DNA of 45,862 nt, taken from positions 1 to 45,862 of the forward strand of contig DASRZP010000005.1 in NCBI GenBank assembly GCA_035686305.1. The letters run 5' to 3'. The position numbers were made by a program, and so were the translations under genes. Origin of the DNA: Thermodesulfovibrionales bacterium. GTDB taxonomy: Bacteria; Nitrospirota; Thermodesulfovibrionia; Thermodesulfovibrionales; UBA9159. A model generated the notes under the pieces. The model was not told where the DNA came from and did no database searches. It worked only from the letters and a program-made list of their open reading frames with translations. Below are positions 1-12,703 of the stretch, in pieces (the first letter of the stretch is position 1; each line of letters starts with the position of its first letter).

Positions 1-615
1 CATCTCTCCTGCCCTCTTTCTCACTCTCGTCGTCATATCGGTCGTAATCATGCCCGGCAGAATGGCATTCACCTGTATCCCCTTTCCGGAGAGCTCTACA
101 GCACAGGCACGGGTGAATGCGATGAGCCCCCCCTTTGCAGCCGCGGAGGTTGTCTGCCCCCTCCCTCCCTTGATTGCGCTGATGGAGGCAATATTGATGA
201 CCTTCCCTGAGTGGGTGGAGAGCATCATCTCTGCAGCATGCCGGGTGCAGAGAAATGCCCCTCTCAGGTTGAGATTGACGACCTTGTCCCATTCGGTCAG
301 CGTCATGCTTAAGAGGAGGTTGTCCTTTATCATGCCTGCATTGTTCACGAGTATGTCCAGCCTGCCGTAGTCTTTCCTGATCCATGCAAACAACCTCTCG
401 ATCTCTTCCGGAAGACCGATGTCAGCCTGGAATATTTCGGCATCTCCCCCTGAGCGCATAACCTGATCCTTCACTTTTTCGGCCTCTCCGTGAGACCTGT
501 TGTAATTAATGATGACACGCGCTCCTGCCTCTGCGAGGCAGACGCTCGTCTCCCTTCCTATTCCCCGGGACCCTCCGGTAACGAGGGCTACCTTATTACT
601 CAAGTCTATCTTCAT
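1..615 (-). CDS. FabG-like short-chain reductase with Tyr-to-Ser active site (3' end beyond window)
   Basis: Short-chain dehydrogenase/reductase, read as 205 codons from the ATG at 615 to the window edge, so the C-terminus is missing. The N-terminal NAD(P)-binding motif TGGSRGIG (residues 13-20), the NNAG motif (about 91-94) and the late PGMITTDM segment are those of 3-oxoacyl-ACP reductases (FabG). The expected catalytic Ser is present (S144) and so is the Lys (K161), but the Tyr of the YxxxK motif is Ser157 (SAAAK). I read this directly from the bases. The ribosome site GAGGAG overlaps the stop of the upstream ketosynthase, 9 nt away, so this is the last visible gene of the synthase operon. 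By family it should reduce 3-ketoacyl-ACP. Without the Tyr it may be inactive, use another donor, or have a structural role. Confidence 0.88.
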   Translation of the reverse strand, partial: MKIDLSNKVALVTGGSRGIGRETSVCLAEAGARVIINYNRSHGEAEKVKDQVMRSGGDAEIFQADIGLPEEIERLFAWIRKDYGRLDILVNNAGMIKDNLLLSMTLTEWDKVVNLNLRGAFLCTRHAAEMMLSTHSGKVINIASISAIKGGRGQTTSAAAKGGLIAFTRACAVELSGKGIQVNAILPGMITTDMTTRVRKRAGEM

Positions 616-624
616 CACCGCTCC

Positions 625-1905
625 TCACCGGTATTTTTTCACCACGACCGATGCATTCTGACCGCCGAACCCAAAGGAGTTGGATATGGCGGCCTTGACG
701 GTCTGTGTCCTCATGACGCCGGGAACGTAATCGAGATCGCACTTGGGATCGGGCTGAGAGAGGTTTATTGTGGGATGGATCGCGTCTCGCTGCACACTGA
801 GCACGGTAAAGACGAATTCAGGGGCGCCCGAGGCTGCCAGGGTGTGGCCTATCATGGACTTGCTTGAACTGATCGGAATCCGGTACGCGCGCTTCTCTCC
901 AAAGACCTCCTTGACGGCCAGGGTTTCGACCACGTCGTTCAGTTTTGTGCTTGTTCCATGGGCATTGATGTAGTCGATCTCATCCGTACCGAGGCCCGCG
1001 TCATCAAGGGAGGCCCGCATTGACTGCACGGCTCCCCGTCCTTCAGGATGGGGCCGGGTGAGCTGGTATGCATCGAGGGAGGCCCCGTATCCTGCGACTT
1101 CAGCATAGATCCGCGCCCCTCTCTGAAGGGCGTGTGATTCCTCCTCAAGGACCGCAACCGCTGCCCCGTCCGCCATGACCAGTCCCGACCGCCTCCTGTC
1201 AAAGGGCCTGCAGAGGGTTCGGGGCTCTTCGTGAGAGGTTGATGCAGCATTCAGGAGCACAAAGAAGATGAGGCCCACAGGATTGGTCATCGTGTCGGAG
1301 CCGCCCACTGCCATCACATCGGCCTCTCCCCGCTGAATCGCCCGGTACCCTATGCCTATGGCCTGAGTGGCAGAAGCACAGGCTGCAGTCACCGTGGCAT
1401 TCATTCCCAGGAGCCCGAACTTCTTGGCGATGAGCGACGAAGGCCTGTGAGAAAGGTTCCTCATAATTGACTCCCTGTGCACCTCTGAAAACTCTTTGCC
1501 GAAGCGGATCATATCGAAGGTACGGTCCTTGTTGATCCACCGGGCGATATCCTCTAAACGGTTAATCCCTATTCCCGATGCAAGGGCGACAGCGTATCGT
1601 TCTCGGTCGCCATACTCCATAGGAAGGGCAGCGTCCCTCAAAGCCTGCTGCGCAGCCCAGAGGGCGATGAGCGTCTTCTTCTCTCCTTCCGTCTTCCCTT
1701 CTTCCCTGAATTCCCTGACGATGGCCTCCATGTCCTCTTCACGCATCGCACCGGCAGCCTGGATGGGTGAGCTGTCGGAAAAAGGGCAGTCAAGCTTCCG
1801 TATGCCCGACTCGCCCTTCAGGACGCTCTGCCAGTTCTCTTCCACAGAGAGGCCGAGGCACGTTGCCAGTCCTAGGCCTGTAATGACGACTCGCCGTTTC
1901 TTCAT
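625..1905 (-). CDS. Beta-ketoacyl-ACP synthase II-like (FabF family), complete triad
   Basis: A 426-aa condensing enzyme of the FabF/KAS II family, which joins malonyl-ACP to a growing acyl-ACP in the cytoplasm. The complete Cys-His-His triad is visible: Cys176 in TAACASA, His316 in NAHGTST and His354 in SMIGHTLAAS. The C-terminal NSFGFGGQNAS segment is also typical. The N-terminus RRVVITGLGLAT fits the family start, so the ATG at 1905 is accepted. It follows the FabZ-like gene by 13 nt. Three ketosynthase homologues in one operon, with a dedicated ACP, point to a secondary acyl product (aryl polyene, ladderane-type or unusual lipid) rather than housekeeping fatty-acid synthesis. That product assignment is inference. 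Confidence 0.93.
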   Translation of the reverse strand: MKKRRVVITGLGLATCLGLSVEENWQSVLKGESGIRKLDCPFSDSSPIQAAGAMREEDMEAIVREFREEGKTEGEKKTLIALWAAQQALRDAALPMEYGDRERYAVALASGIGINRLEDIARWINKDRTFDMIRFGKEFSEVHRESIMRNLSHRPSSLIAKKFGLLGMNATVTAACASATQAIGIGYRAIQRGEADVMAVGGSDTMTNPVGLIFFVLLNAASTSHEEPRTLCRPFDRRRSGLVMADGAAVAVLEEESHALQRGARIYAEVAGYGASLDAYQLTRPHPEGRGAVQSMRASLDDAGLGTDEIDYINAHGTSTKLNDVVETLAVKEVFGEKRAYRIPISSSKSMIGHTLAASGAPEFVFTVLSVQRDAIHPTINLSQPDPKCDLDYVPGVMRTQTVKAAISNSFGFGGQNASVVVKKYR

Positions 1906-1918
1906 CTCGCTGCACCGT

Positions 1919-2368
1919 TCATCGTTCCGCTTCGCTCAGGCCGCTGTAATATCCGAAGAGTCTCCGCAGGTCTTCGGGATTGACCCCGGAGAGATGGCCA
2001 TAAATGATGCGGTTGACATGGGCTATCTCTCTCCCGCCGACAGACATGCTAACCCTTCCCAGGGAGTCCCTCTTCGACGTCGAGATGAGCTCGGCATGGA
2101 TCTCTGCGCTGAATCCGGGCCTCAGGTCTGGTGCCACGACGGCTTCCTCGGCAAGGGCCAGGAACGTGGAGAGCTTGAAATCATAGGAATAGATGATGAG
2201 CCAGCCGAGGAGTTGGGCCATGGCCTCGATCAGGAGCACTGCGGGTACGATGGCCTTCTTCTGATAATGCCCTCTCAGGAATTCCTCGGTAAGGGAAAAG
2301 GTCTTCACCCCTGTTATGGATGCCCCTTTCTCGATCTGAATCACCGAATCATACATGAGGAATCGCAT
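1919..2368 (-). CDS. FabZ-like 3-hydroxyacyl-ACP dehydratase (hotdog fold)
   Basis: About 149 aa. The segment GHYQKKAIVPAVLLIEAMAQ matches the FabZ/FabA active-site stretch, keeping the His of the GH pair and the Glu of EAMAQ, while the usual PG is PA. It should dehydrate 3-hydroxyacyl-ACP to enoyl-ACP. The open frame extends 31 codons upstream (to 2461), but that part lies inside the preceding ketosynthase-like gene. The ATG at 2368, 8 nt after that gene's stop, gives the usual family length and is preferred; the Met five codons in is an alternative. It sits between two ketosynthase homologues, so it is probably part of the same synthase. Confidence 0.85.
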   Translation of the reverse strand: MRFLMYDSVIQIEKGASITGVKTFSLTEEFLRGHYQKKAIVPAVLLIEAMAQLLGWLIIYSYDFKLSTFLALAEEAVVAPDLRPGFSAEIHAELISTSKRDSLGRVSMSVGGREIAHVNRIIYGHLSGVNPEDLRRLFGYYSGLSEAER

Positions 2369-2376
2369 AATGCTAT

Positions 2377-3660
2377 CTACCTGCTGGTACTTTCGATGAC
2401 AAGCGATGCAGCCTGACCCTCGGTACTCTGGCAGTTGATGAGAATCCTCCTTATATCGCATCTCCGGGGCTCGCCGGTGACAAGGCTAAACCGTATCGCG
2501 GGATCGGGATTACGGGTATTGAGCGTCATCGGTATGATGCCGTACCCGAGGATCGATATGCCCAGGACAAGATCAACGAGAGGAGCGGCCGCGAGGAGAT
2601 GCCCGACCGCGGCCTTTGAAGAGAAGACATGAACACGCTCAGGAGATTGAGAGAAGACCTCATGGATTGCCTCGATCTCGTTCCCGTCGCCCTTCGGTGT
2701 CCCCTCGCCATGGGAAATGATGAGGTCGATGTCGGAGGGACCGATCTCCGCACGGCTGAGGGCCTTCTTCATCGAGGCTCCAAGGGCCTTTACCGTGGGC
2801 CCGGGGAGATGCGCCTCAGCCTCACAGGCGCTTCCATAGCCCGTTATCACGGCGAGGGGGATGATGCCCCTCTTCTCCGCGGTCGAAGCCTTCTCGATCA
2901 CCACGACTCCGCATCCCTCACCGAGGACCGTTCCTTTCCGATTCGCATCAAAAGGCTTCACGCAATCCTCCGCGGATCCGGCGCTCCTGTTGAGAATGCC
3001 TGAGAGGTGGCCGCGCGCAAGACTGAAGGGCGTTATTGTCTCACTCACACCGGCCGCGAGGGCAGCGATGCATTTCCCGTCCTCAACGGACTTCATCGCC
3101 TCTGAAACAGCCTGGGCGCCCGAGTCTGCATGGGGGGAAAGGACCGTGTTCTCTCCCTGAATGTCAAGGTCTATAGCCACCTGACAGAAACTGATGTTAT
3201 TGAGCATCGAGAGCGGCCAAAGGGGATGGATCTCCCTATACCCCTCGGCATAAAAGGCGGCATAGTCGATGGTTCCCCGGCCATCGAGGGACTTCATGAC
3301 AGCGGGAAGGAGATCGTCTACGCTGTAATCAACCATCCCCATGCCAGCAAAAAAAGCGATCGATTCCCTCGGGATCTGAGCCCCGTCAAGACCGGACGCG
3401 AAAAAGGCATCACGTGTTGCCTTCATAAGCATGGAGGAATGGGTCTTCATGATCCGCGTCTCCCTGGGATCGACTCCCAGGGACTGCTGGAGATCCCGTA
3501 CCTGAGCGGCGACGGAGCAATCAAAGCCACGGGCATCAAAACCGTCCACGGGCCTGATTCCCGAGCTTCCGGAAATGATCGCATCCCATACAGACGGCAG
3601 ACTGTTGCCGAGGGAACAGACGATGCCTGCCCCTGTGATCACGACGCGGTCATGGGGCAT
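2377..3660 (-). CDS. Ketosynthase homologue lacking the catalytic Cys (chain-length-factor-like)
   Basis: About 427 aa with thiolase/ketosynthase fold signatures: RVVITGAGIVCSLG at the N-terminus, ISHGEGTPKGD and KAAVGHLLAAAP for the two His positions. Where FabF has TACxSG, this protein has PHADSG, so the nucleophile is Ala178 (numbered from the ATG at 3660). The Cys is absent and both His are kept, as in chain-length factors (KS-beta) and decarboxylating KSQ domains, although those usually carry Gln. It may therefore partner an active ketosynthase or decarboxylate malonyl-ACP to start chains. The frame extends to 3810, but homology supports Met at 3660, overlapping the upstream ketosynthase by 11 nt. 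Met at 3702 or 3726 is possible. Confidence 0.86.
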   Translation of the reverse strand: MPHDRVVITGAGIVCSLGNSLPSVWDAIISGSSGIRPVDGFDARGFDCSVAAQVRDLQQSLGVDPRETRIMKTHSSMLMKATRDAFFASGLDGAQIPRESIAFFAGMGMVDYSVDDLLPAVMKSLDGRGTIDYAAFYAEGYREIHPLWPLSMLNNISFCQVAIDLDIQGENTVLSPHADSGAQAVSEAMKSVEDGKCIAALAAGVSETITPFSLARGHLSGILNRSAGSAEDCVKPFDANRKGTVLGEGCGVVVIEKASTAEKRGIIPLAVITGYGSACEAEAHLPGPTVKALGASMKKALSRAEIGPSDIDLIISHGEGTPKGDGNEIEAIHEVFSQSPERVHVFSSKAAVGHLLAAAPLVDLVLGISILGYGIIPMTLNTRNPDPAIRFSLVTGEPRRCDIRRILINCQSTEGQAASLVIESTSR

Positions 3661-4984
3661 GGCTGTCCAGGCAAAGAGAAGGTCCGTCGTCTCGGTCATC
3701 ATACCTGCCGATACAGAGACAGGCATTCTGCCCTCCAAACCCGAAAGAATTGGACAGTGCCCTGCCGTGCTTCTTTCTTCGCGCCTCGTTCGGTACATAA
3801 TCGAGGTCACATTTCGGATCGGGAAACTCGTAGTTAATCGTCGGAAGGATGATCGAACGATTCATGCCCACAAGCGTCAGTATGGCCTCGATCGCCCCGG
3901 CAGCACCTATGGTGTGGCCGAGCATGGACTTGTTGCTGCTCACAGGAATCTCCCGCGCCCGTTCTCCGAAGACCTCCTTTATCGCGGTCGTCTCGGTAGG
4001 ATCGTTTTGCGCCGTGGAAGTCCCGTGGGCATTGATGTAGTCAATGTCCGCAGAAGAGAGCGAAGCGTCCTCTATAGCACCCCTCATCGCCAGCACGGCG
4101 CCGAGCCCCTTGGGATGGGTGTCAGTGATGCGATAGGCGTCGGCTGAGACCCCATATCCGAGCACTTCGCCGAGTATGGGAATCCCCCGCGATCTAGCGT
4201 GCTCAAGATCCTCCAGGATAACCGCTCCGGCTCCCTCCGACATGACAAAGCCGCTCCGCTTCCTGTCAAAGGGTCGTGACGCCTTCTGGGGGGTACTGTA
4301 TTTCTCAGCCAGGGCCTTGATAAGGACGAAGCCGACAAAGCCGACGAAATTCAATTGGGAATCACATCCTCCTGCAATCATCACATCGGCCCTGCCGTCA
4401 CGAATGATCCGGAAGGACTCACCGATGGCCTGAGAACCTGCAGCACAGGCCGATGCGATAGAGAGCGCCGGTCCCGCACACCGAAAAAGTCTCGACAGGA
4501 TCGCACCGCCAACGTCAGGTTTTCTCCGGAGAAAGTTTAGATGTGAGTATCCTTCAAGGGAGAGGAGTCCGCGACTATCCCATCCTTTTCCGTCATAATA
4601 CCTGTGGAGCAAGACAAGGTCTTCGACCGAAGGATTGTCTCCGTGAAAACCGAGAACACAGCCGATTCTCTCCCTCTTCACGACATGGTCCAGACCTGCC
4701 TGACCCGCAGCCTCGCGGGTCGCTTTTGCCATCAGCCTGAGGCCACGGGAAGAGAAGGCAAGAAGCCTGAGAGACTTCTCGTCCTCCTCCTTCTCAAGCC
4801 ATTGGTCATTAACCTCTCCGCCTATCCTGCAGGGAAGGCCCGAGGTATCGAACCTCGACAGATAATCAATTCCCGATTTCCCTTGAGAGGCCTTCTCAAA
4901 GGTATCCTCGGTATTCTTTCCCAGAGGCGTCACCATACCATATCCGGTAATGACGACCCTCCGTCTGGAAGATGATGTCAGCAT
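3650..4984 (-). CDS. Beta-ketoacyl-ACP synthase (FabF family), complete triad
   Basis: A 444-aa FabF-type ketosynthase. Cys180 (ASACAAGSQ), His320 (NAHGTST) and His357 (KSMLGHTIGAAG) form the triad, and NSFGFGGQNA closes the family core. A short C-terminal tail rich in Asp and Ser overlaps the next gene. It immediately follows the ACP gene (25 nt) and precedes the Cys-less homologue with an 11-nt overlap. The order active KS, then inactive KS, resembles KS-alpha/KS-beta pairs of type II polyketide systems, so a heterodimer is a reasonable inference. Sequence style is close to the other active ketosynthase of this operon (both have LPTIN or HPTIN and DPKCDLDYVP segments), suggesting duplication. 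Confidence 0.93.
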   Translation of the reverse strand: MLTSSSRRRVVITGYGMVTPLGKNTEDTFEKASQGKSGIDYLSRFDTSGLPCRIGGEVNDQWLEKEEDEKSLRLLAFSSRGLRLMAKATREAAGQAGLDHVVKRERIGCVLGFHGDNPSVEDLVLLHRYYDGKGWDSRGLLSLEGYSHLNFLRRKPDVGGAILSRLFRCAGPALSIASACAAGSQAIGESFRIIRDGRADVMIAGGCDSQLNFVGFVGFVLIKALAEKYSTPQKASRPFDRKRSGFVMSEGAGAVILEDLEHARSRGIPILGEVLGYGVSADAYRITDTHPKGLGAVLAMRGAIEDASLSSADIDYINAHGTSTAQNDPTETTAIKEVFGERAREIPVSSNKSMLGHTIGAAGAIEAILTLVGMNRSIILPTINYEFPDPKCDLDYVPNEARRKKHGRALSNSFGFGGQNACLCIGRYDDRDDGPSLCLDSHAP

Positions 4985-5009: not shown

Positions 5010-5576
5010 TCAGAAGAGCTTTTTCTCTTCCTGAACCTTGCTAAGCCAGGCCTTCATGAGATCGTCGCCGTTGTCAAAGGTTGCGTTTGCGCCGCAGGAG
5101 CCGCAGACGATGCGGACACCGTTTTCCGTCTTCCAGGCTGAGTTGCCGCAGGCCGCGCATGCTCCGGGAAGGCTGTCGAGGATATCCATGACTCCCATGG
5201 TCATGGTCTTCACCGTAACGAGGGTAGGCACCTCGTCCATATCCATTCCCGCATGGATTTCAGCAGGAAGGTCTCCTCCCGCCCTGATCTTCAGGAGTTC
5301 AACGGCCTTGTCCGTCAATTGGCCGTTCTCATCGATTGCCGAGCCCTCACCGAACATCTCTTCCACATGTTCGAGGACAAAATGGCGAGCCATCTTGATC
5401 CCGAAGGTCTGCTCCAAACGGTACGTTATGTCGAGAAAGTCCAGGGACTCTGCTCCCAGGTCCTTCATGAGTGAGTCCTCAGGCCCGATTGAGGCCTTAT
5501 CCCTGTTGAGGGTCTCAGCGACCCCTTTCTTTACCTCTTCAAGAACCGTTTCTTCCGAAATGAACTTCTCTTTCAT
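5010..5576 (-). CDS. Acyl carrier protein with C-terminal zinc ribbon
   Basis: A 188-aa protein. Residues 1 to about 95 are an acyl carrier domain with the phosphopantetheine motif DLGAESLDFLDI, attachment site Ser44. After a linker (about 100-135) comes a four-Cys ribbon: Cys140-x2-Cys143 and Cys158-x2-Cys161, followed by a charged tail. Ordinary ACPs are about 75-90 aa, so this is an unusual fusion. The start ATG at 5576 has GGAGGA about 9 nt upstream. It lies between the FabL-like reductase (21 nt upstream) and the first ketosynthase, so it is the dedicated carrier of this cluster. The ribbon may bind zinc and dock partner enzymes; its function is not known from the sequence. Confidence 0.9.
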   Translation of the reverse strand: MKEKFISEETVLEEVKKGVAETLNRDKASIGPEDSLMKDLGAESLDFLDITYRLEQTFGIKMARHFVLEHVEEMFGEGSAIDENGQLTDKAVELLKIRAGGDLPAEIHAGMDMDEVPTLVTVKTMTMGVMDILDSLPGACAACGNSAWKTENGVRIVCGSCGANATFDNGDDLMKAWLSKVQEEKKLF

Positions 5577-5597: not shown

Positions 5598-6395
5598 CTA
5601 CTGATTTTCTCTCTGTCTTACCGTTACCGGTCTGTGGAGCCTGTTGCTGAGCCCCCGGTCAACAACAATCGTCTGGCCACATAGCCCTCTGCTTGCCGGG
5701 CCGCAGAGAAAGAGCGCAGCATCAGCTATCTCATCGGGCTCAACAAAAAGTTCATCAGGTATCTGTGCAACCTCGTCCCAGAGCCGCCTCAGTATCTTGA
5801 AGGAGTCTGTCTTGACGATTCCGCCGCAGACCCCATTGACCGATATCTTCCTGTCGCTCAGGCTCTCGGCGAGGTCCCTCACAGCCGCCTCCATTGCAGC
5901 CTTCATCGTTCCCAGAGGATAGGAAGTGTTGTAAAAGCGGCTTCCGAGGCTCGATATGAAAACGATTTTCCCCCCTCCTCTCTTCTCGAAAAGGGGAAGG
6001 GCCTCCTGAACGCAGAAGATGTTCCCTAGAAAATTTGTCTCCACGAGTTGACGAAGCTCCCGTTCAAAGAGCTGTTCCAAGGGCTTAAAGGGCGCCTTTG
6101 CAGCGTTGAGTACAAGAAAATCCAGGCGGCCGCACCGCTCCCTGATCTCGCTGAACAGGTGATTCACCGACGCCTTCACCGCTATGTCGGCCTGGATGAG
6201 GTATGCACGTCGCCCCATCTCTTCTATCTGCTTCGACAGCATCGCACCCTGCTCCTCGGACTTCCCTCCCGACTTCCTGTAGTTGATGACCACATCGGCG
6301 CCGGAACGTGCAAAGGCGAGGGCCAAAGCGTGCCCGATACCGCGGGAGCTTCCCGTTACTAAAGCGATCGTGCCTCTGAAATCATGCATCTCCAT
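5598..6395 (-). CDS. FabL-like short-chain reductase (candidate enoyl-ACP reductase)
   Basis: A 265-aa short-chain reductase with the NAD(P) motif TGSSRGIG (14-21), LNAA in place of NNAG, and the run SSLGSRFYNTSYPLGTMKAA. Its body resembles Bacillus FabL (enoyl-ACP reductase III): SSLGS, then a Tyr-rich stretch, KAAxEA, CGGIVKTDS and GQTIVVDRG. FabL proteins use Y-x6-K; here Tyr159 lies six residues before Lys165 (Y-x5-K) and a second Tyr is at 155, so the spacing is atypical for both FabG and FabL. It is the first gene of the leftward synthase operon. The start at 6395 is the longest; Met3 is an alternative. Role as enoyl or ketoacyl reductase is inferred. Confidence 0.82.
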   Translation of the reverse strand: MEMHDFRGTIALVTGSSRGIGHALALAFARSGADVVINYRKSGGKSEEQGAMLSKQIEEMGRRAYLIQADIAVKASVNHLFSEIRERCGRLDFLVLNAAKAPFKPLEQLFERELRQLVETNFLGNIFCVQEALPLFEKRGGGKIVFISSLGSRFYNTSYPLGTMKAAMEAAVRDLAESLSDRKISVNGVCGGIVKTDSFKILRRLWDEVAQIPDELFVEPDEIADAALFLCGPASRGLCGQTIVVDRGLSNRLHRPVTVRQRENQ

Positions 6396-6568: not shown

Positions 6569-6658
6569 TGGCGGAGGGGGTGAGATTCGAACTCACGGTA
6601 GAGTCACCCCTACAACGATTTTCAAGACCGTCGCCTTCAACCGCTCGGCCACCCCTCC
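6569..6658 (-). tRNA. tRNA-Ser (anticodon UGA)
   Basis: A 90-nt tRNA on the minus strand. The acceptor stem GGAGGGG pairs with CCCCTCC, followed by discriminator G and an encoded CCA. The anticodon arm is ACGGT-CTTGAAA-ATCGT with TGA in the loop. A long variable arm (GTAGGGGTGACTCTAC) and the T arm GAGTTCGAATCTC are typical of tRNA-Ser. Confidence 0.97.
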
Positions 6659-6821: not shown

Positions 6822-6907
6822 GCCGAAGTGGTGGAACCTGGTAGACACGCACGTTTGAGGGGCGTGTGGGGCAACCCATGCGGGTTCGAGTCCCGCCTTC
6901 GGCACCA
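6822..6907 (+). tRNA. tRNA-Leu (anticodon GAG)
   Basis: An 86-nt tRNA. The acceptor stem GCCGAAG pairs with CTTCGGC, discriminator A, encoded CCA. The anticodon arm CACGT-TTGAGGG-GCGTG carries GAG. A long variable arm and the T arm GCGGGTTCGAGTCCCGC fit tRNA-Leu. It is divergent from the tRNA-Ser. The 231 bp after it hold no recognisable gene. Confidence 0.97.
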
Positions 6908-7731: not shown

Positions 7732-8910
7732 TCAGTGTTCTATTTCTATTCCTTCCGTATCTTCCCGCACCGAGATCGCTATCTTGTAAAGGGCGGTAAG
7801 AACGAGAAACCCGATCGACCAGATACCGAGGGCAATCATCGTTTCAGGTACGGTTGGCCAGTATTCTGTTATCTTCTCGAAGGGGTTGGGAATGAATCCG
7901 CCAACAACAAGGCCGAAACCCTTATCGATCCAGAGAGCGATAAAAAGAGATGCACATGCCACCGCCAGTTTGTTCTCATCCCTGCGGGTGATGGGGTTGA
8001 TGAGGATGACGAGAGATACGACAGCAAGGATGTTTGATACCCACATGAGGGGAACGAGTTTGGCATGGCCTTCAAGTCCTACATAGAGATACTTGAAGGA
8101 ATTCATGTGCCCCGGGATGCTGCTATAGAAGGCCGTAAAGAATTCGAGGCCGAGGAAGAAGACGTTTGCGACCATTGCATAGGTAACGATCTTCGAGAGG
8201 GCCTGGATCTGCTCCCTGCCGGGATCGAATTTCGTGAGCCTTCTCACGATGAGGGCAAGGATAATGAGAAGAGCAGGACCACCGGCAAAGGCAGAAGAGA
8301 GGAAACGGGCAGCCATGATGGCTGAAAGCCAGAAATGTCTTCCCGGAAGTCCAGCGTAAAGAAAGGCTGTGACGGTGTGAATACTGATCGCCCAGGGGAT
8401 AGAAAGATAGATGAGGGGTTTCACCCATGCAGGCGGCGCCACCGCCTTGCGGTCCGCGCCGAGGGTGGTCCAGCCGATGATGAGGTTCAGCGTCAGATAC
8501 CCGATGAGCACAAGGGCATCCCAGAACATCACTGAATTGGGAGTGGGATGGAGCACGACGTTATAGATGCGGATTGGCTGGCCCATATCAACAAAGATAA
8601 AGAGGACGCACATGGTCACTGCAGAGACAGCCAGAAATTCTCCGAGGATGACGATCTTCCCGAATTTCTTGAAGTCGTGGAGATAATAGGGGATGACAAG
8701 CATCACCGCGGATGCGGCTACGCCGACAAGAAAGGTGAACTGTCCTATGTAAAGGCCCCATGACACATCCCTGCTCAGGCCTGTCACTCCCAGACCATTC
8801 TTAAACTGATAGATATAGGCAATGAAACCCGCTCCGATAATGGCGAGCAGGAAGAGCATCCATGTCCAGTATCTTCGGCTTCCGACGAGCGCCTTTTCAA
8901 GCATTCTCAT
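7732..8910 (-). CDS. dsrP: DsrP, NrfD-family quinone-interacting membrane subunit
   Basis: A 392-aa integral membrane protein with about ten hydrophobic segments and the NrfD/PsrC-family layout, for example a conserved [16 protein letters not shown] second helix after a short cytoplasmic N-terminus. In the DsrMKJOP complex it exchanges electrons with the quinone pool, passing them through DsrO and DsrJ. It is the last dsr gene of the operon and overlaps dsrO by 14 nt, implying translational coupling. The polar C-terminal tail ([11 protein letters not shown]) is short. Function is known for the family; order and overlap are seen here. Confidence 0.95.
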
Positions 8911-9682
8911 TCCCTCCTATGATGTAGTAGACACTCGGCTGAGTCCCGAGTTCAGGTTTGCGCCGAATCGTAAAGTGCGCGCTGAGGACCTTCCTGACCT
9001 CCGAGTTCGGGTCGTCGAGATCGCCGAAGATCAGTGCGCCGTTCGACTCCTCGACGCAGGCAGGTCTCAGCCCCTTGACAAGCCTCTCGAAGCAGAAGGT
9101 GCACTTTTCGACAACGCCGATCGTCCTCGTAGGATACTCAGGATTCTGCTCCTTGATAAAGGGCCTCGGGTCCCGGTAATTGAAGCTCCGTGCGCCGAAG
9201 GGACAGGCAGCCATGCAGAACCTGCACCCGATGCAGCGATGCTGGTCCATCATCACAATTCCGTCTTTTCTCTTGAATGTGGCCTTTGTGGGGCAGACCC
9301 TCACGCAGGGCGGATTATCACAATGATTGCAGAGCAGGAGGAAGGGTTTGTGCTTGAGTTCCTCTTCAATATACTCACTCTCCTGACTCGGAAAGGTGTG
9401 CTCGAAGGTGTCGGTCCATATCCACTTGACCTCATCCTTTGGGTTCCCGAAATCAGGGACATTATGGATGCGATGGCAAGCACTCGTGACTCTCCGGTAG
9501 TCTTCTTCTGTCTTGAGCTTCCTCATGTCAATGACCATGGCCCATCTCTTCGCCGTGAGGGCCTTCTCATCGACAAGCACATGGGAGGCCTCGACTTCGT
9601 TTGAATGGAGCCTGAGCGCTGCGCCTCCAAGCCCGAGGACCGTCGACATTCCCGCTATCTTTAAGAATTCTCTCCTGTTCAT
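8897..9682 (-). CDS. dsrO: DsrO, periplasmic iron-sulfur subunit with Tat signal
   Basis: A 261-aa ferredoxin-like protein. The N-terminus [13 protein letters not shown] is a twin-arginine (Tat) signal, so export folded to the periplasm is expected. Cys clusters follow: [14 protein letters not shown] (from about residue 118), [14 protein letters not shown], and [11 protein letters not shown] with further Cys, as in DsrO/HybA/NrfC-type proteins carrying several [4Fe-4S] centres. It should relay electrons between DsrP and DsrJ. Its ATG shares 4 nt (ATGA) with the dsrJ stop, and it overlaps dsrP downstream. Confidence 0.95.
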
Positions 9683-10095
9683 GACGTCTTCTCCTTAGGT
9701 GCGATATGGCAGTCCCAGCAATAAGGCTTCACAGCCATATAGGTGTGGCATGAGTCGCAGAACTCTTTCTTGTTCGAGTGGCAATGCATGCAGGTGTTCT
9801 GAAGACTGATCGTAAACTTCTTCCCTTCAGAATTCACATAGAGCCTCTGGCCGTCGCGCACGGCAAAGTCTCTCCAGTTATTCAAGAGCTTCATATGCTC
9901 GGCCCTCATGAATGCCTTCGGCTCCACGCATTCCTTCTTCCCGTATTCCTTTTCCCATTGGAGGATGGCCGGCGTATCGGTCTTCGGCTCGGGTCTTGGA
10001 TTGGCCCTTCCCATATTGTAGAAAAATGGGAACGTCATAAACGCCGCGAAGATGAGCAGCCCGATAAAGATCTTGCCGCCATTGTATATCTTCAT
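9679..10095 (-). CDS. dsrJ: DsrJ, membrane-anchored triheme cytochrome c
   Basis: A 138-aa protein with an uncleaved-looking N-terminal membrane anchor (about residues 8-28). Three CxxCH heme sites crowd the C-terminus: Cys102-His106, Cys113-His117 and Cys126-His130. A lone upstream Cys56 (KKECVEP) matches the Cys proposed as an axial heme ligand in known DsrJ. It acts on the periplasmic side of the DsrMKJOP complex. The start overlaps the dsrK stop as TAATG, and its stop overlaps the dsrO start, so the operon is tightly coupled. Confidence 0.95.
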   Translation of the reverse strand: MKIYNGGKIFIGLLIFAAFMTFPFFYNMGRANPRPEPKTDTPAILQWEKEYGKKECVEPKAFMRAEHMKLLNNWRDFAVRDGQRLYVNSEGKKFTISLQNTCMHCHSNKKEFCDSCHTYMAVKPYCWDCHIAPKEKTS

Positions 10096-11708
10096 TACTC
10101 CTTCCCCTCCTTTCCCGGAAGCGGTTCGAGGCGAAGGTCCTGTGTCCTCTCCGTCTCTCCCTTCATCACAAGGGCGTTACCGACCAGCTCGTGAAGACCT
10201 GCCACTGCCACGCCAGGCACCCAGTAGTCCATCAAGGTCGAAAGGGTGGCGCGGTCGATGGCGCAGATATTGGCGAGCATATTCACCCCATGCCGCTCCT
10301 TGACAAAGGTGACGGCATTGGCCCTGGGGAACCCTCCCCTCATCCTCAGCTCCATATTCTCAGAGGCGTTGAGACCGGTGCCGCTGCCGCAGCAGAAGGT
10401 CTTTTCCCTGATCGTATCCTCGGGCATCTCATAGAAATGGTTGCAGACGCTCTTGAGCACGTACCGGGGCTCCTCAAAGAACCCCATTCCCCGTGCTGTG
10501 TTGCAAGAGTCATGGTACGTCGCCTTGAGGTGGTCATTGCGGCTCGGATCGAGTTTGAGTTTGCCGTTCTTGATCAGATCCGCAGTGAACTCAGCGATAT
10601 GGACCATTTTCGTCGAGCGTGCATTCTCAAAGACCGTCCCTGTGATGGGCGATTTCGGAATCTCGAGGAAATCAGCCGGACCGTTCCAGGTATCCATATA
10701 TTGATTGATGACCCTCCACATATGGCCACATTCGCCTCCGAGGATCCACTTCACTCCCAGTCTCTTGGCTTCGGCATAGATCTTTGAGTTCAGCCGTTTC
10801 GCCATTTCATTCGTCGTGAAGAACCCGAAGTTTCCGCCCTCAGAGGCATAGGTGCTCCAGGTGTAGTCGAGCCCGAGTTCATGGAAGAGCATGAGATATC
10901 CCATCGCCGTATAGGTCCCGGGGTTGGCGAAGAGGTCGCCCGAAGGCGTTACGAAGAGGATCTCGGCGCCCTTCCTGTTAAAGGTGGGGGTTATCCTGAT
11001 CCCGGTGATCGTCTCGATATCATCGAGGAAGAAGTCGATACTTGAGGTGATGGTATGGGGCTCAAGGCCGAGGTGGTTTCCCTTCATGTAACAGTTCGCC
11101 ACCGGCCCGCCTATCCAGCCAAGTTGTAGTCCGAGGAGATTGAGCAGCTCCCTGCCCATCATCGTGATCTCGGCCTGGTCTATGCCATAAGGACAGAAGA
11201 CCGAGCAGCGCCGGCATTCGGTGCATTGATAGAAGTAATACCACCATTCCTTGATCACTTCAGGGGCGAGTTCCCTCGCGCCTGCGATCTTCCTCAGGAT
11301 CTTTCCTGCAACGGTGAAGTTCCCCCTGTATACCGACCTGAGGAGCTCGGCCCTGAGCACAGGCATATTCTTCGGGTCACCGGATCCGATAAAGAAGTGG
11401 CACTTGTCAGCGCACGCTCCGCATCTTACGCAGATATCCATAAAGACCTGGAAGGAACGGTACTTTCCGAGAAGGTTCTTCATTCCTTCGAGGACGGTCT
11501 TCTCCCAGTTTTCGGGAAGCTTCCAGTCTTCTTCGCTCGGCCTCCATTCCCTCGCATTGGGAAAGCCCACGGTCTCAAGCTCCTTCGGCTTTGCTCCATG
11601 ACAGAACATGTGCTCCCTGATTCCGACAGGAGTATCTATCCATTCGGTCTTGGGCGGGGTGTAATTTATGTTCGCCAGGTCATTCGGTTTTGCAGTAAAT
11701 TTCGCCAT
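10095..11708 (-). CDS. dsrK: DsrK, HdrD-like cytoplasmic iron-sulfur subunit
   Basis: A 537-aa protein homologous to the HdrD subunit of heterodisulfide reductase. Two ferredoxin-type clusters are seen: CVRCGACADKCHF and CTECRRCSVFCPYG. In the C-terminal half CCG-type motifs (HDSCNTARG, then CCGSGTGLN) supply ligands for the catalytic non-cubane [4Fe-4S] centre. In the family it reduces the DsrC trisulfide released by DsrAB, using electrons from DsrM. It follows dsrM by 2 nt and overlaps dsrJ. Confidence 0.96.
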   Translation of the reverse strand: MAKFTAKPNDLANINYTPPKTEWIDTPVGIREHMFCHGAKPKELETVGFPNAREWRPSEEDWKLPENWEKTVLEGMKNLLGKYRSFQVFMDICVRCGACADKCHFFIGSGDPKNMPVLRAELLRSVYRGNFTVAGKILRKIAGARELAPEVIKEWWYYFYQCTECRRCSVFCPYGIDQAEITMMGRELLNLLGLQLGWIGGPVANCYMKGNHLGLEPHTITSSIDFFLDDIETITGIRITPTFNRKGAEILFVTPSGDLFANPGTYTAMGYLMLFHELGLDYTWSTYASEGGNFGFFTTNEMAKRLNSKIYAEAKRLGVKWILGGECGHMWRVINQYMDTWNGPADFLEIPKSPITGTVFENARSTKMVHIAEFTADLIKNGKLKLDPSRNDHLKATYHDSCNTARGMGFFEEPRYVLKSVCNHFYEMPEDTIREKTFCCGSGTGLNASENMELRMRGGFPRANAVTFVKERHGVNMLANICAIDRATLSTLMDYWVPGVAVAGLHELVGNALVMKGETERTQDLRLEPLPGKEGKE

Positions 11709-11710
11709 AG

Positions 11711-12703
11711 CTACTCCTTTTCTACTGGAATTCCAGCGGCCTTCATTTTATCCCTGAAATCATTCTCGTATTCTTCGTAAGTATGGACCTTGACAGGGTA
11801 GTTCCATGGGTTGATGTGCCTCACCATCCTGCTGTTGTTCGGCATGTTCCTCGTGGGGCTGAGAAAGACCCCTGCCATGTGCACCAGTTTGCTGAAGGGG
11901 AAGTAGGCGAAAAGGATACTGATGAGAAAGAGATGGACATAAAAGATGGCTCCGATCCCCCGCGGTATTGCCGGGTTAAGGCTGATGAGTCCCATCGTCA
12001 ACTCCTTCACACCCGCGACATTGACTTTGAAGAAATATCTCATGAGAACACCTGATAGTGCGATGCCGAGAATCAGGAAGAGGGGGAAATAATCCGCGGG
12101 AAGGGAGATGTACCGTATCTGGGGAAGATATACTCTCCTGATTAAGAGGTATGTTACGGCCAGGAGGATGATTGCGTCTGTCATATAAAACAGAGGCGCC
12201 CCTATCTGGAAAAAGGAGTCAAGCGCCTCTACCAGCCGGATAGGGAAAGGCACCTGCTGAACAAAAAACCTCAGGTGTCTGATGAGGATAAGAAGAAATG
12301 ACCAGTGAAAAGCGAGTCCCGCAAGCCAGAGCCACTTCTCTGATCCATAGGAAAGCTGCGGGCCGTCCCTTAATTCGGTCTTGAGGTTCCTGAAGAGGGA
12401 ACGGAAAACAAGGACTTCGAGGGCCATTCTGCCGATAACACCCGGGGTGGTGGATGGGTTTTCGAGTTTATCCTGTTTGATCCAGGGGAAGGATTTCTGC
12501 TGTCCACAGGTAGTGGGGATGCAGAAGGGCACCGGCGCACTCGCCCATTTTAAGACACGGTAGATAATACCGACCGTGAAGATGGCAAAGGCTGCATAGG
12601 GGATGATGACACCGAAGAGAAAATGCAGGTTCGCCCCTTGGACCCCGACAAAGACGAGCAAAACAAGCACGAGTACCGAAAAGAAGGGAAGCAGTATTTT
12701 CAT
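11711..12703 (-). CDS. dsrM: DsrM, cytochrome b membrane subunit
   Basis: A 330-aa membrane protein of the nitrate-reductase gamma (NarI/HdrE) type with about five or six transmembrane helices. Candidate heme-b His residues lie in LAFHWSFLLILIRHLR and in the late helix pair YVHLFLIS and SKLVHMAG. It oxidises menaquinol and passes electrons to DsrK. The C-terminal NMPNNSRMVRH segment is typical of DsrM proteins. AGAGGT precedes the ATG. It heads the dsrMKJOP block, 78 nt after the RsbRD-like gene. Confidence 0.94.
   Translation of the reverse strand: MKILLPFFSVLVLVLLVFVGVQGANLHFLFGVIIPYAAFAIFTVGIIYRVLKWASAPVPFCIPTTCGQQKSFPWIKQDKLENPSTTPGVIGRMALEVLVFRSLFRNLKTELRDGPQLSYGSEKWLWLAGLAFHWSFLLILIRHLRFFVQQVPFPIRLVEALDSFFQIGAPLFYMTDAIILLAVTYLLIRRVYLPQIRYISLPADYFPLFLILGIALSGVLMRYFFKVNVAGVKELTMGLISLNPAIPRGIGAIFYVHLFLISILFAYFPFSKLVHMAGVFLSPTRNMPNNSRMVRHINPWNYPVKVHTYEEYENDFRDKMKAAGIPVEKE

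Follow-up and report, generated by a model that had tools for sequence, protein, structure and literature searches.

The window analysed here, the whole 45,862-nucleotide contig G000:C5 of a Thermodesulfovibrionales bacterium, encodes an acyl carrier protein (ACP) of 188 aa (5010..5576, minus strand, ATG start) in which an insertion of ~50 residues splits the canonical ACP fold (residues ~7-134) and a ~50-residue extension, made of a four-Cys hairpin and a helix, follows that fold. Discrete ACPs are normally about 80 residues long, and their partners recognise mainly helix II. The architecture is real, conserved and apparently undescribed; no open-access paper joining an ACP, a zinc ribbon and a ketosynthase was found, subscription journals lying outside this coverage. 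The protein, hereafter the ribbon ACP, probably serves a secondary type II fatty acid synthase as its own carrier, in a pathway whose chains are loaded onto a lipid.

Architecture of the ribbon ACP

The ACP part is recognised by PF00550 (PP-binding), which matches residues 14-70 with an E-value of 8.5e-9 (36 bits against a cut-off of 20.8), and structure comparison returns the ACP fold with a Z of about 10. Helices I and II occupy residues 1-59 (5400..5576, minus strand; model helices 8-23 and 44-58) and include the codon of the phosphopantetheine serine (5445-5447), which is assigned by homology to Ser44 within the motif LGAES(44)LDFLD and is invariant across 37 sequences. When standard ACPs 78-80 aa long are superposed on the model, 78 residues are matched over its residues 6-134, and about 50 residues are therefore inserted between helix II and helix III. 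This insertion, missed by the sequence-only reading, spans approximately residues 60-112 (5241..5399, minus strand) and carries extra helices at 67-75 and 89-98. Helices III and IV follow at residues 113-135 (5172..5240, minus strand), as placed by the model and the alignment of standard ACPs. Another ACP of the same genome (L002), of housekeeping type and adjoined by a FabG-like gene, matches residues 10-62 only, at 34% identity, which indicates that the ribbon ACP is a dedicated second ACP and not the housekeeping one.

All four Cys of the protein (C140, C143, C158 and C161; spacing CxxC-x14-CxxC) fall in residues 136-168 (5073..5171, minus strand), where the predicted model and the alignment describe two Cys knuckles joined by a beta hairpin (148-151/155-158). 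The C-terminal helix, residues 169-188 (5013..5072, minus strand), bears the motif GDDL...WL...Q, which is conserved more than the Cys. The fusion of an ACP to a four-Cys C-terminal tail, as first proposed from the letters alone, is confirmed by the PF00550 match together with these cysteines. A CxxC...CxxC pattern arises in 0.046% of tail shuffles, and the conservation of the four Cys is a stronger argument than this shuffle test for a real tail. The structure predicted from 37 homologues has a mean pLDDT of 92 and a pTM of 0.86, while the tail modelled without the ACP reaches a pLDDT of 75 against 92 for the whole protein, suggesting that the tail probably needs the ACP core.

The architecture had also been called non-standard, and this is borne out by Pfam and NCBIfam, in which no second domain of the ribbon ACP exceeds its cut-off; a known two-domain protein was ruled out on the same ground. 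All scores of curated zinc-ribbon families on the protein lie under their cut-offs, and sequence matches in the PDB are confined to the ACP part, except for one marginal thymidine kinase. A fold search of the PDB with the tail alone gave nothing reaching a Z of 5. Since its fold matches are weak (E 0.26-1.9, Z about 3), with ribosomal ribbons best and the TFIIB ribbon lower, 'zinc ribbon' is a reasonable but unproved name.

The gene cluster and its relation to known systems

In the window, the ACP gene belongs to a tight minus-strand run in the order SDR1, ACP, KS1, CLF, DH1, KS3 and a truncated SDR2. SDR1 (5598..6395) is a FabL-like, enoyl-ACP-reductase-like SDR, assigned from its best NCBIfam match, synteny and a Y-x5-K motif. 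KS1 (3650..4984) and KS3 (625..1905) are ketosynthases with an intact Cys-His-His, according to family matches and active-site alignment, while CLF (2377..3660, start taken as the ATG at 3660) is a KS-like protein whose active Cys is aligned with Ala. DH1 (1919..2368, start taken as the ATG at 2368) is a FabZ-like hot-dog dehydratase (PF07977, E 9.7e-11) with orthologues in syntenic loci, and SDR2 (1..615), a FabG-like reductase, is cut by the contig end. In relatives the operon goes on, reading SDR1-ACP-KS1-CLF-DH1-KS3-SDR2-AcpS-DH2-KS4-LpxL-type acyltransferase. The additional genes, namely AcpS, a second FabZ-like gene (DH2), a second CLF-like KS (KS4) and the LpxL-type acyltransferase, are known from relatives only, because the window ends inside SDR2. 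The catalytic Tyr of the window SDR2 reads Ser (QTTSAAAK), the residue being Tyr in every orthologue and paralogue compared; given its position near the contig end, this may be an assembly error.

Just upstream of the cluster lie genes for tRNA-Ser (6569-6658, minus strand) and tRNA-Leu (6822-6907, plus strand); tRNA genes are a common place for insertions. Also upstream, at 7732-12703 (minus strand), are genes whose sequence motifs resemble by eye the dsrMKJOP membrane complex, and this neighbourhood differs in relatives. One related genome, G002, has two more genes past the acyltransferase (L064, 18225-19899, plus strand), one without a Pfam family and the other with a weak condensation-domain match. 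The same genome contains a second, decayed copy of the cluster (L136, G002:C386:1-9000), formed by the start of SDR1, then an ACP fragment with the end of KS1, a frameshifted KS3 and AcpS fragments, in which CLF, DH1 and most of KS3 are 80-86% identical to those of the window. This copy could instead reflect contamination or misassembly.

The constant unit of the cluster is the FabL-like SDR, the ACP and one KS. SDR1 lies immediately before and KS1 immediately after the ACP gene in every locus with enough flank, and the trio stays intact where the cluster is split. The Syntrophobacteraceae loci L042 and L043 are without CLF and KS3, and in the complete genome G020 the trio sits ~45 kb from the remaining cluster genes, CLF included; no acyltransferase was detected in the 20-kb stretch where those remaining genes lie. 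The expectation that the ACP would always neighbour a KS pair is accordingly correct for most loci but not for these three, where CLF is either missing or distant. At a CLF orthologue threshold of E 1e-65 or better, and using the same 296 Nitrospirota genomes for both genes, 18 genomes have ACP and CLF, two have the ACP without CLF (in one of these a CLF narrowly misses the threshold), none has CLF only and 276 have neither. The corresponding Fisher p-value, about 7e-27, is only a guide, since related genomes are not independent. This co-occurrence upholds the idea that the tail is diagnostic of a single type of cluster.

About 60 distinct homologues are found in Nitrospirota, Syntrophobacteraceae, Pseudomonadota, Acidobacteriota and Nitrospinota, including records titled 'Deltaproteobacteria' and Gammaproteobacteria, and full-length homologues with 48-75% identity occur in at least five lineages. 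The ribbon ACP is patchy in Nitrospirota (20/296 genomes) and its ribbon-bearing form is rare in Acidobacteriota (3/179), being nearly universal in the phylum of locus L058, probably Nitrospinota (16 of 18 genomes). A tail-only profile was run on 694 genomes from two phylum samples (345 + 349), with hits in 3/345 genomes from the phylum to which a Syntrophobacteraceae member belongs and in 1/349 from that of a Chromatiales member. It matched only open frames of 189-217 aa and the tail of no other protein in these genomes. The same tail on many unrelated ACPs, which the sequence-only reading had named as the observation that would speak against it, was looked for in this set and not found. The tail as a widespread module was ruled out because in the 694 genomes it occurs solely on frames of ribbon-ACP length.

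The Cys-His-His of KS1 and KS3 is kept throughout their orthologues. At the Cys position, the window CLF has Ala, its orthologues have Ala, Ser, Gly or Pro but never Cys, and KS4 has Ser without exception. The cluster therefore offers two active/inactive KS pairs, of which KS1, with its C-H-H, and the adjacent CLF, with its Cys replaced, form a putative heterodimer of KS/CLF type. KS1, KS3, KS4 and the cluster CLF each constitute a supported group across phyla in a KS tree that leaves the order of the deepest groups without resolution; this fits one common operon whose genes were inherited or transferred together. Regarding SDR1, its FabL score stays below the cut-off (206 vs 328 bits) and all family members have Y-x5-K, not the Y-x6-K of the SDR from a ribbonless sister cluster, which makes enoyl reduction uncertain.

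The nearest system with a worked-out function is the acpXL-lpxXL locus of rhizobia and Agrobacterium, where a specialised ACP acts with FabZ, a pair of KS-like proteins, a dehydrogenase and LpxXL to equip lipid A with a very long fatty acid (PMC11901934). AcpXL (PDB 2kw2, 3lmo) is likewise a dedicated non-canonical ACP, and 3lmo is the top Foldseek match of the ribbon ACP. The two kinds of locus share a FabZ-like protein and a C-H-H KS with a Cys-less KS-like partner (Glu in the three AcpXL loci aligned), and an LpxL-family acyltransferase is present in one AcpXL locus, as it is in relatives of the ribbon cluster. In contrast, AcpXL has about 92 aa and no ribbon against 188 aa with a ribbon in the window, an alcohol dehydrogenase stands where the ribbon cluster has SDRs (PMC11901934), and the ribbon-cluster KS fall outside the FabF1XL group. 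Close kinship with AcpXL was ruled out, as the AcpXL model NF005079 scores 42.6 bits on the window ACP vs a cut-off of 83 and the KS tree gives no grouping. By analogy, the ribbon-ACP system most likely works like the rhizobial AcpXL system without belonging to it.

An alternative, which we regard as unlikely, is that the cluster makes a polyene, either an aryl-polyene or a ladderane-like compound, with the ACP as the carrier of the pigment or polyene. Conjugated chains would result from two KS/CLF-type pairs, a ketoreductase and dehydratases in a cluster whose enoyl reductase is unproven, and KS/CLF type II polyketide and aryl-polyene systems share with the ribbon cluster an active KS with a Cys-less partner, a discrete ACP, a ketoreductase and a dehydratase. 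Anammox ladderane-type FASII clusters likewise contain additional ACPs together with divergent KS whose active sites, the Cys included, are altered (PMC2649909), and the amxACP (7auf) is a fold match to the ribbon ACP (Z 9.8) whose 89-aa chain covers the ACP part only. However, the KS proteins of the ribbon cluster score far below the cut-offs of the specialised KS models listed in NCBIfam and pass only a broad FabF subfamily, and the nearest family of SDR1 is that of the enoyl reductase FabL. Radical SAM and phytoene-desaturase-like genes have been reported in ladderane clusters (PMC2649909), but none was found in the interval examined, from SDR1 to the acyltransferase in the syntenic loci. 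Over the same interval no starter or aromatic-tailoring genes were recognised, nor were aromatic starter enzymes, an exporter or a methyltransferase of aryl-polyene type in complete loci such as L068, the window operon being truncated.

Cysteines of the tail and ribbonless relatives

Outside the Nitrospinota group, each of the 42 distinct homologues that cover the ribbon retains all four Cys, and six of these homologues have the first knuckle shortened to CxC. Within that group, three of the four are lost in 17/17 sequences, the positions reading S, gap, C and T, and the tails keep the surrounding W, GD, WL and Q; most simply, the alignment suggests a single loss in one lineage. Since the tail is retained there without the four-Cys site, a structural metal fits better than a sensor or a catalyst. 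The putative ribbon probably forms a structural zinc site and, as the sequence-only reading suggested, may dock partner enzymes; zinc bound by the four Cys would most likely stiffen the hairpin.

The Nitrospinota-type proteins also disfavour the suggestion that the ribbon senses redox state, since they lost three of their four Cys and the gene was retained. A redox or metal sensor in which the four Cys switch carrier activity by oxidation state is quite improbable: disulfides can form in CxxC pairs, and several of the organisms with this ACP belong to groups that include anaerobes or members active in the sulfur cycle, but all 17 sequences that lack those Cys retain the operon and the remainder of the tail, six others have a shortened knuckle, and joint loss of several Cys is what would be expected of a structural metal site. 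Weakest of all is the notion of a neutral extension on an ordinary ACP paralogue, which, even though three insertion-bearing ribbonless relatives show that some ACPs of the wider group can dispense with a tail, is made very improbable by conservation over at least 40 sequences from several phyla (tail identity 42-70%) and by confident modelling (mean pLDDT 94-96 over residues 121-188).

Those three relatives, L097/L107 from Gammaproteobacteria and L130/L132 and L131/L133 from Acidobacteriota, have the same insertion and end right after helix IV, with only 31-36% identity to the window ACP. The ribbon would consequently have been gained later, by an ACP that already had the insertion, an order suggested by this comparison of sequences. 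The L107 cluster also has a FabL-type SDR, a FabG-like SDR, a KS, a CLF and an acyltransferase, as in relatives of the ribbon cluster, and its FabL-type SDR scores 330.6 bits, just over the FabL cut-off of 328. In Acidobacteriota, the ribbonless expanded ACP of L132 is near a KS pair and that of L133 is beside genes that look by eye like radical SAM genes; both are possibly further related clusters.

Proposed function in a probable secondary fatty acid synthase

The best reading of a dedicated carrier accompanied by two KS pairs, reductases, dehydratases and an LpxL-type acyltransferase is a secondary fatty acid synthase whose product is transferred to a lipid. In the proposed order of reactions, malonyl and acyl groups would be held on the phosphopantetheine of Ser44 and the chain would be elongated by KS1 with CLF and, in relatives, also by KS3 with KS4. 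Processing would fall to the FabG-like SDR2, the FabZ-like DH1 and DH2 and the FabL-like SDR1. In relatives, the LpxL-type acyltransferase may then hand the finished, probably long, chain to an acceptor lipid, for example lipid A. The insertion and the ribbon would set this ACP apart from the housekeeping ACP and enable its recognition by SDR1 and KS1, which are proposed as the recognising partners because they are the two genes from which the ACP never parts. To our knowledge, no other stand-alone ACP carries an appended ribbon as a docking or recognition device.

More tentatively, the cluster may represent an undescribed secondary fatty acid synthase, near-universal in one phylum (probably Nitrospinota) and patchy elsewhere, that makes a chain for an envelope lipid, with the ribbon as a domain for docking KS1 and the FabL-like reductase and a metal-free version of it in one phylum. 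If true, the ribbon ACP would be a natural example of carrier identity built into a type II pathway, by means of an insertion, a Cys ribbon, one KS and one reductase. The cluster would point to a lipid, uncharacterised so far, that is common to several groups of mostly uncultivated bacteria.
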